In this document: positions 531 through 5,180 of the stretch, piece by piece
Layout of the letters: the number at the start of each line of letters is the position of its first letter
Position numbering within the stretch: the first letter of the stretch is position 1
NCBI GenBank assembly: GCA_027068765.1
Contig: JAMOMC010000071.1
Location: 1-39,379 of the forward strand
DNA length: 39,379 nucleotides
Direction of reading: 5' to 3'
DNA from: Campylobacterales bacterium
Lineage (GTDB): Bacteria; Campylobacterota; Campylobacteria; Campylobacterales; QNZT01
Translations under genes and position numbers: made by a program
The notes under the pieces: model-generated
What the model was told of the DNA's origin: nothing
Seen by the model: only the letters and a program-made list of their open reading frames with translations
Databases searched by the model: none

Positions 531-2345
531 GTGGACGAAATACTAATAGGCATAAAAAAAGATGGTGAGATTTTTGATATTCAAAGTGCTGATATAGAAA
601 ATTTAACTGGTGAAAATATACTGTACGATAACTCAAGTGAGGCTTTAGAAATTATTCGCCATTCAACCGCACATTTGATGGCACAAGCTATAAAGATATT
701 ATATCCAGATGCAAAGTTTTTTGTAGGACCGGTGATTGAAGATGGGTTTTATTATGATTTTAGAACCAAAGAGAAGATAAACGATACAGACTTAAAAGCT
801 ATCGAAAAACAGATGAAATCTCTTATCAAGAAGAAACTTCCAATTGAAAAATATAGTATAAGTAAAACTGATGTATTGGAAAAATTTGCAGATGATGATT
901 TGAAGCAAGAGGTGCTAAAAAGAATTGAAGATGAAAATATAACTATCTATAAACAAGGTGAGTTTGAAGATTTGTGTCGGGGTCCTCATGTGCCAAACAC
1001 TAAACTGCTACACAACTTTAAACTAACTCGTGTAGCAGGTGCATATCTTGGTGGAGATGAAAAAAGAGAGATGCTTACACGAGTTTATGGTACTGCATTT
1101 GCTGATAAAGAGAGTTTGAAAGAGCATCTTGCGATAATTGAAGAGGCAAAAAAAAGAGACCATAGAAAATTAGGTAGAGAGTTAGATCTTTTTACTTTTG
1201 ATGATGAGATTGGAGCGGGACTTCCTATATGGCTTCCAAATGGTGCAAGACTTAGAAGTAAACTAGAAAATCTTCTTTTTAAAGCTCATAGGAAAAGAGG
1301 TTATCAACCTGTTCGTGCTCCTGAGATTTTAAAATCAGATGCTTGGAAAGTTAGTGGGCACTATCAAAACTATGGTGAAAATATGTACTTTACTACTATT
1401 GATGATGTTGAGTATGGGATTAAACCTATGAACTGTTTGGGGCATATCAAGGTTTATCAAAACTCTCTTAGAAGTTATCGTGACTTGCCACTTAAGTTTT
1501 TTGAATATGGTGTGGTTCATCGGCATGAAAAAAGTGGTGTTATGCATGGGTTGTTTAGAGTTCGTGAATTTACTCAAGATGATGCACATATATTTTGTAT
1601 GCCTTCGCAGATTAAAGATAATGTTATAGAAGTTTTGGGCTTTGTTGATGATATTATGAAAAGTTTTGGTTTTTCGTATGCTCTTGAAATCTCAACTAGA
1701 CCAGATAAAGCAATTGGTGATGAAAAAGTTTGGGAAGTTGCTACAGATGGCTTAAAAGATGCACTTGATGAAAATGGCATCTCTTATGAAATTGATGAAG
1801 GTGGTGGAGCATTTTATGGTCCAAAGATTGATATCAAAATCACAGATGCACTAAAAAGAAAATGGCAATGCGGAACAATCCAAATTGATTTTAATCTACC
1901 AGAGAGATTTGGACTAACATACAATAATGAAAACAATGAAAAATCCCAGCCTGTGATGATACATCGTGCAATTCTTGGCTCTTTTGAGAGATTTATCGGA
2001 ATTTTGATTGAGCATGTTGGTGGAGAGTTTCCATTTTTTATAGCTCCTACTCAGATTATTGTTATTCCTGTTGCCGAGACTCATTTGGATTATGCTAAAG
2101 AGATTGCAAATGAGCTTATGGAGATGGAGATTGATTGTGAGATTTCAAGTAAAAATGAGAGTTTAAGTAAACGAATTAGAGTAGCAGAAAAACAAAAGCC
2201 TCCTATGATTTTAGTAGTAGGAGATGAAGAGATTGATAATAAAACCGTTGCTTTAAGGGATAGAAGAGAAAGAAAACAGTATAATTTAACAAAAGCTGAA
2301 TTTTATAACATAATAAAGGAGAAAATGGATGAGGTACACTTTTGA
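531..2345 (+). CDS. thrS: Threonine--tRNA ligase
   Basis: Charges tRNA-Thr with threonine in the cytoplasm. The 604-residue protein has the editing-domain motif HSTAH (His44 and His48) and CRGPH, then the class II catalytic core: PMNCLGH with a zinc-binding Cys, motif 2 around [16 protein letters not shown] with a zinc-ligand His, and motif 3 [11 protein letters not shown]. The C-terminal anticodon-binding domain starts near [11 protein letters not shown]. Only about 40 residues precede HSTAH, against about 70 in the E. coli enzyme, so the N-terminal TGS domain is shortened or absent. The start is GTG with GAGG upstream at about 522-525. The stop overlaps the infC start by four bases, so the two are translationally coupled. 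Confidence 0.97.
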
Positions 2346-2875
2346 ATAGAGGCAAAGGCAAAAGAGACGAAACAAGACTAAATGAAGATATAAGATTTCC
2401 AGAAGTTCGCTGTATGAGCGATGATGGAGAACAACATGGTATAATTTCCTCAAGAGATGCACTTGAAATTGCAAGAGATAAAGGTATGGATTTGGTGTTA
2501 ATAGCAGCAGATGCAAAACCTCCTGTTTGTAAGATTATGGATTATGGTAAATTCAAATATCAACAAGAGAAGAAGAAAAAAGAGGCAAAGAAAAACCAAA
2601 AAAAGATAGAAGTCAAAGAGATAAAGCTGTCTGTAAAAATCGCCGACAATGACATAAGCTACAAGATAAAACATGCAAGAGAATTTTTAGAGTCTGGAAA
2701 ACATGTAAAATTTAGAGTATTTTTAAGAGGTAGAGAGATGTCAAACCCACAAGCTGGAAAAGATGTGCTAAATCGTGTCTGGCCAATGGTTGAGGATGTT
2801 GCTATAAAAGAGCATGAGCCTAAATTTGAAGGACGATATATAAATATGTACACAGTTCCCAAAAAAGATACCTAA
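2342..2875 (+). CDS. infC: Translation initiation factor IF-3
   Basis: Binds the 30S subunit, keeps it apart from 50S and checks start-codon selection. The 177-residue protein has the N-terminal domain with NEDIR and the [19 protein letters not shown] signature (about residues 49-68), a Lys-rich linker (about 73-88) and a C-terminal domain with KHAREFL and RGREM. It starts at a TTG that overlaps the thrS stop, with GAGG about 10 bases upstream. A non-AUG start is typical of infC, where IF-3 discriminates against its own start codon. That autoregulation is known from E. coli (AUU start) and inferred here. The usual followers rpmI and rplT are absent; lgt comes next. Confidence 0.97.
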
Positions 2876-2901
2876 AATTTGGACTTTAAAAAGGCAAAAA
2901 G

Positions 2902-3729
2902 ATAGTATCGTTTTGGAACAACATATATGCAAACTTCAATCCAGTAGCATTTGAATTTTTTAGTATTCAGGTTCGCTGGTACGGCATTATGTATGTTACA
3001 GCTTTACTTACAGCTACTCTTTTTGCATATTACATTGTAAGAAAAGACAAACTCCCCATACCAAAACCTTTACTTGATAGCTATATAATTTGGGTTGAAA
3101 TAGGCGTGATTTTAGGAGCAAAACTAGGGTATGTTTTATTTTATGACCCTTATTTGTCTGATTATCTTTTAGAGCCTTGGCAAATGTTTAATCCATTTGA
3201 TGAGCAAGGAGAGTTTGTGGGAATTGCTGGATTTAGCTACCATGGGGCTTTGCTTGGATTTTTTTTGGCATCTACTCTGTTTTCATTTGTGCATAAGATT
3301 AACCAATGGTATATGCTTGATGTTGTCTCTATCGCAATTGCCTTAGGGTATACTTTTGGCAGAGTTGGAAACTTTTTAAATCAAGAGCTTATTGGAAGAG
3401 AGACTAACCTTCCTTGGGGAATTTATGTAGATGGAGTATTAAGGCATCCTTCTCAACTTTATGAAGCATTTTTGGAAGGGGTTGTTGTTTTTACTATCTT
3501 ATATTTATATAGAAAACAAAAAAGTTTTAATGGAGAGTTAATTGCACTTTATATGTTATTATATGCTATTGCAAGATTTGTAGCGGAGTTTTTTAGAGAG
3601 CCAGATATACAGATAGGATATGTCTACTTTGGTTGGATGACAAAAGGACAAGAGTTCTCAATCTTGATGATGATTTTTGCTTTTATACTTTATATGTACC
3701 GTAAAAAAATAGGAGAGACGACGCTGTGA
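2902..3729 (+). CDS. lgt: Prolipoprotein diacylglyceryl transferase
   Basis: Transfers diacylglycerol from phosphatidylglycerol to the lipobox Cys of prelipoproteins, at the inner membrane. Visible motifs are YHGALLGF (usually HGG), GRVGNFLNQELIGRET (catalytic Arg and Glu region), HPSQLYEA and ARFVAEFFREPD, with several hydrophobic segments. The first ATG in frame is at 2989, but the frame encodes a convincing Lgt N-terminus upstream of it (WNNIYANFNPVAF, then VRWYG). No ATG, GTG or TTG occurs between the in-frame stop at 2887 and 2989. ATA at 2902 lies seven bases after AAGG (2891-2894) and would give 275 residues, close to the family length; I chose it as the probable start. The conservative alternative is 2989. 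The stop overlaps the next gene by four bases. Confidence 0.93.
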   Translation: MVSFWNNIYANFNPVAFEFFSIQVRWYGIMYVTALLTATLFAYYIVRKDKLPIPKPLLDSYIIWVEIGVILGAKLGYVLFYDPYLSDYLLEPWQMFNPFDEQGEFVGIAGFSYHGALLGFFLASTLFSFVHKINQWYMLDVVSIAIALGYTFGRVGNFLNQELIGRETNLPWGIYVDGVLRHPSQLYEAFLEGVVVFTILYLYRKQKSFNGELIALYMLLYAIARFVAEFFREPDIQIGYVYFGWMTKGQEFSILMMIFAFILYMYRKKIGETTL

Positions 3730-5180
3730 ATGATATTTTTAATGCAATAAATGGATTTTTATCAGATATACTTTTTTTTGATATTTTATTTGGACAAGTT
3801 GAAGATACAACTATACCTTTTCTTGTGGCTTGGCTGATTGTTGGTGGAATTTTTTTAACACTAAAAATGGGCTTTGTAAACTTAAGAATGCTAAAACACT
3901 CTTTTCAAATAGTAACAGGAAAGTACAAAACCAAAGATGATAAAGGTCAAATCACGCCATTTGAGTCACTAACAACCGCACTCTCAGCAACAGTTGGACT
4001 TGGAAATATCGCAGGTGTTGCCATAGCTATCTCAATCGGAGGTGCTGGGGCTACATTTTGGATGATTATAGCTGGATTTTTAGGAATGACCTTAAAATTT
4101 ACCGAAGTTACATTATCTGTTAAACATAGAGAATTTTTAAAAGATGGTTCTATCATGGGTGGTGGTATGGAGTATCTATCTCGTGGACTTGCTGAAAAAG
4201 GGATGGCTGGTTTTGGAAAAGTATTGGCAATCATCTTTGCGATATTTATGATAGGTGGTGCAATTGGTGGAGGAAATACTTTTCAAGTATCTCAAGCACT
4301 TGGAGTTGTTCAGCAAGAGGTGCCATTTTTAGAGCAGTATCCTATAGTTTTTGGTATAACACTTGCATTGATTACTGGTGCGGTTATCATAGGTGGTATA
4401 AAAAGAATTGCCCACACTACTGTAAAAATTGTCCCTTCGATGGTTCTTATATATGTGAGTGCTTCACTTTGGATACTCTTAACAAACTTCACACAAATTC
4501 CAGCTGCATTTTCTTTAATTTTTAGCGAAGCTTTTGCCCCAACAGCAGTTGCAGGAGGTATGATAGGTGTTATCGTTCAAGGTTTTCAAAGAGCAGTATT
4601 TTCTAGTGAAGCGGGTCTTGGCTCAGCTGGTATAGCCCATGCTCCTGCTCGTGTAAAATACCCCGTAAGACAAGGAATGGTCTCTTTGTATGAGCCTTTT
4701 ATAGATACAATTGTGGTCTGTACCATGACTGCACTTGTAATCATCATAACAGGTGTTTATGACCCTGCAAACGGCTACAAAGAACTCATAGATAGCGGAC
4801 AAGGAGCAGCTTTAACGGCCGCAGCTTATGGAACTGTCATAAGTTGGTTTCCGATTATCTTAACTATATCTATAGTTTTGTTTGCATTTAGCACGATGAT
4901 CTCTTGGTCATATTATGGTGAGAGAGCTTGGGTTTATCTTTTTGGATCTAAATACTCTATTGTTTTTAAAGTTTTGTTTTTAATTTTTATTGTGATTGGA
5001 TCTGTTGTTAATACCTCTATCATGGTTGATTTTAGTTTTATGTTGTTGCTAGGGATGGCTCTACCTAATATCTTGGGGCTTTATATACTTAGTGGAGATG
5101 TGAAAAGAGAACTTGATCTGTATCTTGAAAAGTTGAAAAGTGGAGAACTGGATAAAGAGGCGATTAGGGATAGTTTTTAG
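3726..5180 (+). CDS. Alanine/glycine:cation symporter (AGCS family)
   Basis: Inner-membrane sodium-coupled uptake of alanine or glycine is the usual role of this family. The 484-residue protein is hydrophobic through most of its length. It carries family-typical stretches: a TALSATVGLGNIAGVA segment (about residues 83-98), GATFWMI, GGGNTFQVSQ, and SSEAGLGSAGIAHAPA (about 293-308). The C-terminus is charged. It starts at GTG overlapping the lgt stop (GTGA), suggesting translational coupling, though the two functions are unrelated. The exact amino-acid substrate and coupling ion cannot be read from the sequence. Confidence 0.92.
   Translation: MNDIFNAINGFLSDILFFDILFGQVEDTTIPFLVAWLIVGGIFLTLKMGFVNLRMLKHSFQIVTGKYKTKDDKGQITPFESLTTALSATVGLGNIAGVAIAISIGGAGATFWMIIAGFLGMTLKFTEVTLSVKHREFLKDGSIMGGGMEYLSRGLAEKGMAGFGKVLAIIFAIFMIGGAIGGGNTFQVSQALGVVQQEVPFLEQYPIVFGITLALITGAVIIGGIKRIAHTTVKIVPSMVLIYVSASLWILLTNFTQIPAAFSLIFSEAFAPTAVAGGMIGVIVQGFQRAVFSSEAGLGSAGIAHAPARVKYPVRQGMVSLYEPFIDTIVVCTMTALVIIITGVYDPANGYKELIDSGQGAALTAAAYGTVISWFPIILTISIVLFAFSTMISWSYYGERAWVYLFGSKYSIVFKVLFLIFIVIGSVVNTSIMVDFSFMLLLGMALPNILGLYILSGDVKRELDLYLEKLKSGELDKEAIRDSF

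Follow-up and report, generated by a model that had tools for sequence, protein, structure and literature searches.

AUA serves as a natural start codon in Staphylococcus aureus, where such starts have been mapped for infC and ccpN and identified for citZ (PMC13009471). According to the excerpted text of that report, reporters with non-canonical starts, including those of ccpN and citZ, give about 10% of the AUG value in poor medium, and the ccpN reporter reaches up to 30% of AUG in rich medium; the infC and ccpN AUA sites have extended Shine-Dalgarno (SD) sequences. The enzyme concerned here is best described in Escherichia coli. Six residues of E. coli Lgt, Y26 among them, are named as absolutely required in the excerpted text of one study (PMC13251419), and the variants Y26A, Y26F, Y26Q, G27L, G27Q, and G27W are inactive in that of another (PMC4728403).

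The lgt gene discussed below belongs to a Campylobacterales bacterium known from a 2.34-Mb draft genome in 211 contigs (G000). It lies on contig C71, which constitutes the window, i.e., the whole stretch of 39,379 nucleotides that was analyzed, and the gene order there is thrS-infC-lgt-transporter (Table 1). The lgt frame (2890-3729) remains open for 279 codons, ends with TGA at 3727-3729, and contains no disabling stop or frameshift of the kind that marks a pseudogene. Its product scores 223.8 bits with TIGR00544 (curated cut-off 118.9), exceeds the cut-off for PF01790, matches E. coli Lgt (5azb), and carries at full length all the residues that are absolutely required in E. coli (Y26, H103, R143, N146, G154, and R239). 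Judged by these matches, the frame is a genuine prolipoprotein diacylglyceryl transferase gene, the product of which is referred to as Lgt1. The downstream gene, presumably of the sodium:alanine symporter type, has a GTG start that overlaps the lgt stop (GTGA, 3726-3729) and a strong SD of its own (-7.3 kcal/mol); the overlap suggests that translation of the transporter may be coupled to that of lgt.

Table 1. Coordinates of features at the infC-lgt-transporter locus (positions refer to the window).
Feature	Coordinates	Strand	Remarks
infC (IF3)	2342..2875	+	TTG start; stop 26 bases before ATA 2902
TAA stop opening the lgt frame	2887..2889	+	Bars in-frame starts farther upstream
AAGG, weak SD-like site	2891..2894	+	Best duplex AAGGC, -2.6 kcal/mol
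ATA, near-cognate start candidate	2902..2904	+	Aligns with ATA just upstream of ATG in G003, G002, G001, and L013
GTA at the ancestral start-codon slot	2905..2907	+	Slot is ATG in 23/24 and GTG in 1/24 distinct relatives
Conserved Lgt N-terminus (FWNNIYANFNPVAF...RWYGI)	2911..2988	+	Holds the equivalents of Y26 (2980) and G27 (2983)
Remainder of lgt from the first ATG	2989..3729	+	Identical equivalents of E. coli-essential H103, R143, N146, G154, and R239
Transporter gene, downstream of lgt	3726..5180	+	GTG start overlaps lgt stop; same neighbor in G004 and G003

No ATG, GTG, or TTG is present in the lgt frame between the TAA at 2887 and the ATG at 2989. From 2887 onward the frame reads TAA AAA GGC AAA AAG ATA(2902) GTA TCG TTT TGG AAC, and the first canonical start, ATG 2989, is found 29 codons downstream of ATA 2902. 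This lack is not improbable in itself, as the chance of 29 codons without ATG, GTG, or TTG is ~0.18 given lgt's own codon frequencies. The unusual feature is the conserved coding sequence upstream of the first canonical start: from F 2911 on, the protein aligns with its relatives, and the alignment with E. coli Lgt begins at query residue 13. In the stop-to-stop frame listing, a control that covers the window's own frames rather than the whole genome, no frame runs longer before its first canonical start than lgt (33 codons; the next longest is 27). The first-pass annotation had pointed to a conserved Lgt sequence lacking a canonical start before 2989 and to an AAGG seven bases before ATA 2902, and both observations are borne out by the sequence.

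Ahead of the conserved Lgt stretch the frame offers a single near-cognate codon, ATA 2902. The AAGGC duplex available to it equals in strength those of the relatives L003 and L005, provided that the 16S 3′ end is canonical, from which this genome's own 16S may differ. The sequence features of a natural AUA start are thus found together: conserved coding sequence that no canonical start precedes, an in-frame AUA, and a suitably spaced (weak) SD. Other candidates were considered and set aside. GTA 2905 occupies the ancestral slot but ranks far below AUA, because GTA mismatches the initiator anticodon at two positions. The canonical starts TTG 2879, TTG 2913, ATG 2927, TTG 2951, and ATG 2993 are out of frame and are followed by 6-29 open codons, and the TAA in the lgt frame rules out a frameshift or readthrough from infC.

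Comparison with relatives places the ancestral start one codon downstream of ATA 2902. The five congeners share 67-72% identity in Lgt. Twenty-four lgt1-type loci have distinct readable N-termini (L003-L007, L012-L023, L037, L038, L042, L049, L050, L090, and L091; the fragments L024, L025, L051, and L052, loci with a sequence already represented, and copies of the window itself were left out). The codon aligned with GTA 2905 is ATG in all of these except L014, which has GTG, these starts being positional inferences rather than mapped sites. From this start to the G of WYG the distance is 27 codons, except in G001 and G005, where one extra internal codon makes it 28. The first-pass annotation had suggested comparing close relatives for an ATG at position 2902; none of the 24 uses the AUA position as a start. 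The proposal that lgt starts at AUA stands in part: AUA is the sole plausible start if full-length protein is made, but the relatives start at the slot now occupied by GTA. In G003, G002, G001, and L013, the triplet matching ATA 2902 is untranslated and directly precedes the ATG. Because the ancestral slot is GTA 2905 and the ATA is shared upstream of the ATG in several congeners, ATA 2902 is not simply the ancestral ATG after mutation; either the start would have moved up by one codon or the slot has decayed.

Loss of the start at a rearrangement breakpoint was considered but is not favored, as nine bases separate AAAGGC from the slot both here and in G004, and other congeners have the ATA too. 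These two features suggest, although they do not prove, that lgt brought a short flank with it and that the slot was changed by substitution. Against a flank moved in this way, the MAFFT alignment of the window with G004 has gaps in this region, and G004, the closest relative, has AAA and not ATA before its ATG. In G004, the ~240 bases upstream of lgt (L003:1276-1512) end in an apparent degenerate second copy of the Fe-S gene 3′ end, which suggests that the region upstream of lgt is unstable in this genus.

The neighborhood of lgt has also changed. An Fe-S oxidoreductase-type gene (named from its sequence) lies upstream of lgt in 10 of the 12 relatives examined, and infC is followed by rpmI and rplT in three of the four relatives with infC in view; the homology search gave no infC match in G001. 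In the present genome no lgt follows the Fe-S gene (on C18) and no infC precedes rpmI-rplT (on C5). By this comparison the infC-lgt adjacency is derived and lgt has been relocated behind thrS-infC. A simple mis-join at infC-lgt is made less likely by the rearrangement of the Fe-S and rpmI-rplT ends as well. G004 and G003 have the same lgt-transporter order; when 60 kb of each was compared with the window, the real shared genes were lgt and its downstream neighbor only. The infC product ends in KKDT here vs KKDKEK, KKDKDK, or KKDNEK tails in four relatives, and the infC start overlaps the thrS stop (TTGA, 2342-2345), an overlap that the same number of relatives share. At the contig edge, upstream of thrS, lies an IS5-family transposase fragment (3-344; 53 bits, below the cut-off of 140), and one further partial match is found on C19. 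An element of this family might have had a part in the local rearrangement.

The position of infC, which encodes the factor that rejects such codons, directly upstream of lgt had been noted in the first-pass annotation. The adjacency is real but offers no evidence of an IF3-linked start: the arrangement is derived, and on this branch IF3 evolves unremarkably (omega 0.020 vs 0.040 elsewhere, not significant). For the latter reason, and given that infC precedes rpmI-rplT in three of the four relatives examined, the infC link was discarded as evidence for an AUA start.

The reading that we prefer, though with somewhat less than even confidence, is that lgt1 is a relocated, partly redundant gene translated weakly from AUA. 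In this reading, lgt has moved behind thrS-infC and lost its ancestral start codon, and GTA now fills the slot. Full-length Lgt1 would start at AUA 2902; the AAGG seven bases ahead of it would help initiation, as might ribosomes that complete infC 26 bases upstream. Output would probably reach only a minor part of what AUG would give, and such a weak start could be tolerated if the demand on Lgt1 is reduced, as might be expected from its new place after a translation-factor operon and from the presence of a second Lgt gene.

Early decay of the gene is a close rival and a real possibility. According to this alternative, lgt would be dispensable beside the second Lgt, the loss of the start would be the disabling step, and no meaningful full-length protein would be made. 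It has to be taken seriously because of the second lgt and the fast evolution of Lgt1. The second gene (Lgt2; G000:C164:29822-30613, minus strand, locus L008) has an ATG start and encodes 264 amino acids, 31% identical to Lgt1; it adjoins an activase-like gene, as in G006. The five congeners, three of them at least 90% complete, gave no gene of this type. A search of 298 genomes of the order gave the Lgt2 type in 33 (at least 231 bits). It is the only Lgt match in 28 of these 33, one of them G006 from the same family, so it evidently suffices by itself, which favors decay of lgt1. Searched with Lgt2, G012, G042, G087, G136, and G293 (at least 93% complete) gave no Lgt match, and G012 also gave none with PF01790; assembly gaps are the likely cause.

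The idea that the second Lgt simply takes over is weakened by the state of Lgt2 itself, which goes against decay of lgt1. In an alignment of 30 sequences from the 33 genomes, this genome's Lgt2 departs at 5 of the 58 columns that are invariant in its 29 relatives. Among these relatives, 25 show no such departure and the remaining four show one or two each. Three of the five departures are Gly to Ala changes in catalytic motifs, and the equivalent of G145 is now Ala, a replacement (G145A) that is reported to inactivate E. coli Lgt (PMC4728403). However, G142A, G142I, and G142V are likewise inactive in the E. coli enzyme (PMC4728403), and the Lgt2 clade already has V or I at this position, so the E. 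coli mutant data do not transfer cleanly to Lgt2. The departures at invariant columns, that at the G145 equivalent included, mean that Lgt1 may still be needed. Moreover, G062 and G096 carry both Lgt types and keep ATG in lgt1; hence a second Lgt does not by itself bring about start loss.

The evolution of lgt on this branch bears on both readings. In a codon model with a separate branch omega, lgt has an omega of 0.10 here vs 0.027 elsewhere (2dlnL 10.3), as would be expected in decay, and an omega of 1 is rejected (2dlnL 16.3). Synonymous sites are near saturation, which makes all the selection figures rough, and the branch tests are noisy, as lgt with G004 as foreground gave an omega of 0.39 (2dlnL 3.96). 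None of the four controls (transporter, infC, Fe-S gene, and thrS) shows a significant rise in omega, thrS being borderline (2dlnL 3.6). Purifying selection on lgt is real but appears weakened. Relative-rate counts of unique Lgt changes in G000 and G004 are 41:14, 49:10, and 46:13 with G003, G002, and G005 as outgroups (p = 4e-4, 3e-7, and 2e-5, respectively), an excess that again suits decay. Control counts lean the same way without being significant (27:14, 21:10, 19:12, 8:6, and 7:4), and the rise may therefore reflect in part the genome as a whole.

Columns invariant in 12 relatives make up 99 of the 221 scorable columns but took only 6 of the 49 changes unique to G000 (p 1e-6), so the changes avoid conserved columns. 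Still, when each copy was left out in turn, this one departed at 6 of 99 invariant columns vs 3 of 96 in G004, 2 of 95 in G003, and none in the other three congeners, a difference that speaks for decay together with the lost start slot and the relocation; the more distant L017 and L018 have 10 and 9 departures. The intact 279 codons and the retained E. coli-essential residues speak against it. In a neutral simulation of an untranslated lgt, the probability of no stop fell from 0.31 at 0.02 substitutions per site to 0.17 at 0.03. Because a neutral copy would soon gain a stop, lgt, if dead, must have died very recently.

For an AUA start, the features that count are accordingly those just described, namely the intact frame, the essential residues, the rejection of omega = 1, changes that avoid invariant columns, the stop that an untranslated frame would soon gain, and an altered Lgt2; by analogy, the S. 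aureus precedents (PMC13009471) count as well. Against it count the weak SD, the placement of the AUA off the ancestral slot, the presence at ATG 2989 of an SD-like site of similar strength, and the apparently faster evolution of Lgt1 than of the four control genes, as expected if it matters less.

It is unlikely that a wrong consensus base in the draft has masked a normal ATG (in the simplest case, one with G instead of A at 2904). One change would create a well-spaced ATG, and a draft in so many contigs may contain such errors. However, the corrected ATG would precede by one codon the slot at which all 24 distinct relatives start, and an ATG at the ancestral slot would need two changes. To judge from the canonical starts listed above, no single-base indel joins one in another frame to a relative-like N-terminus. 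Fast evolution and the second Lgt would, moreover, be coincidence.

It seems highly improbable that the AUA has been kept as a translational damper, which would offset strong transcription of the new operon and, because IF3 disfavors AUA, would lower Lgt output when IF3 from the same mRNA is plentiful. If true, lipoprotein maturation would be tied to the supply of an initiation factor.

Least probable of all, and barely credible, is that the gene starts at ATG 2989 and that a short protein of 246 amino acids works: ATG 2989 is the first canonical start in frame, its product scores 198 bits with TIGR00544 and so exceeds the cut-off, and an SD-like GGTA (-2.8 kcal/mol) ends seven bases before it, yet the product would lack the conserved N-terminus with the equivalents of Y26 and G27, which the alignment with E. 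coli Lgt places upstream of this ATG. None of the 24 distinct relatives starts at the corresponding position, an outcome that would have spoken against the AUA start as first proposed; all use the upstream slot. Second-position differences over the 26 codons of 2911-2988 number 1, 1, 1, and 3 vs G004, G003, G002, and G005, a coding-like pattern, although it could be largely inherited. Since 198 bits still pass TIGR00544, annotation software is likely to call this truncated Lgt without essential residues.

Natural AUA starts are already known, and lgt would be at most one more AUA-initiated gene; in the open-licence literature we recognized no report of an AUA-initiated lgt or of AUA starts in Campylobacterota. 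If the AUA start is real, an enzyme essential in most Gram-negative bacteria joins the short list of AUA-initiated bacterial genes, and the locus provides an example of a start that slips by one codon after a gene has moved. If lgt is instead dying, it shows an old essential enzyme in the course of replacement by another version.

Some bacterial pseudogenes at an early stage of decay lie beside an acquired functional equivalent. The present lgt resembles them in its lost start codon, raised omega, and second gene of the same family; it differs in having no stop or frameshift and in that the second gene is itself unusual. The E. coli infC gene starts with AUU, a codon that, like the lgt AUA, IF3 would be expected to disfavor. 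Here, by contrast, infC starts with TTG, and the odd start is on a neighbor brought in by rearrangement. The non-canonical start of E. coli infC and IF3 autoregulation are referred to in PMC13009471. E. coli Lgt (5azb/5azc; PMC4728403, PMC13251419) belongs to the same family, and the residues reported there as absolutely required are present in Lgt1, which differs from it by the equivalents of R73K, M100F, and H24R and by an N-terminus without a canonical start. The closest parallels are infC, ccpN, and citZ of S. aureus, likewise real genes with AUA where a canonical start is expected, and low-yield initiation of the kind reported for them is what we propose for lgt (PMC13009471). For S. aureus, ribosome profiling located the sites, the SDs of infC and ccpN are extended, and the ccpN AUA is shared with Bacillus subtilis and the citZ AUA with one strain lineage (PMC13009471), whereas lgt has a weak SD and is known from the sequence of one genome.
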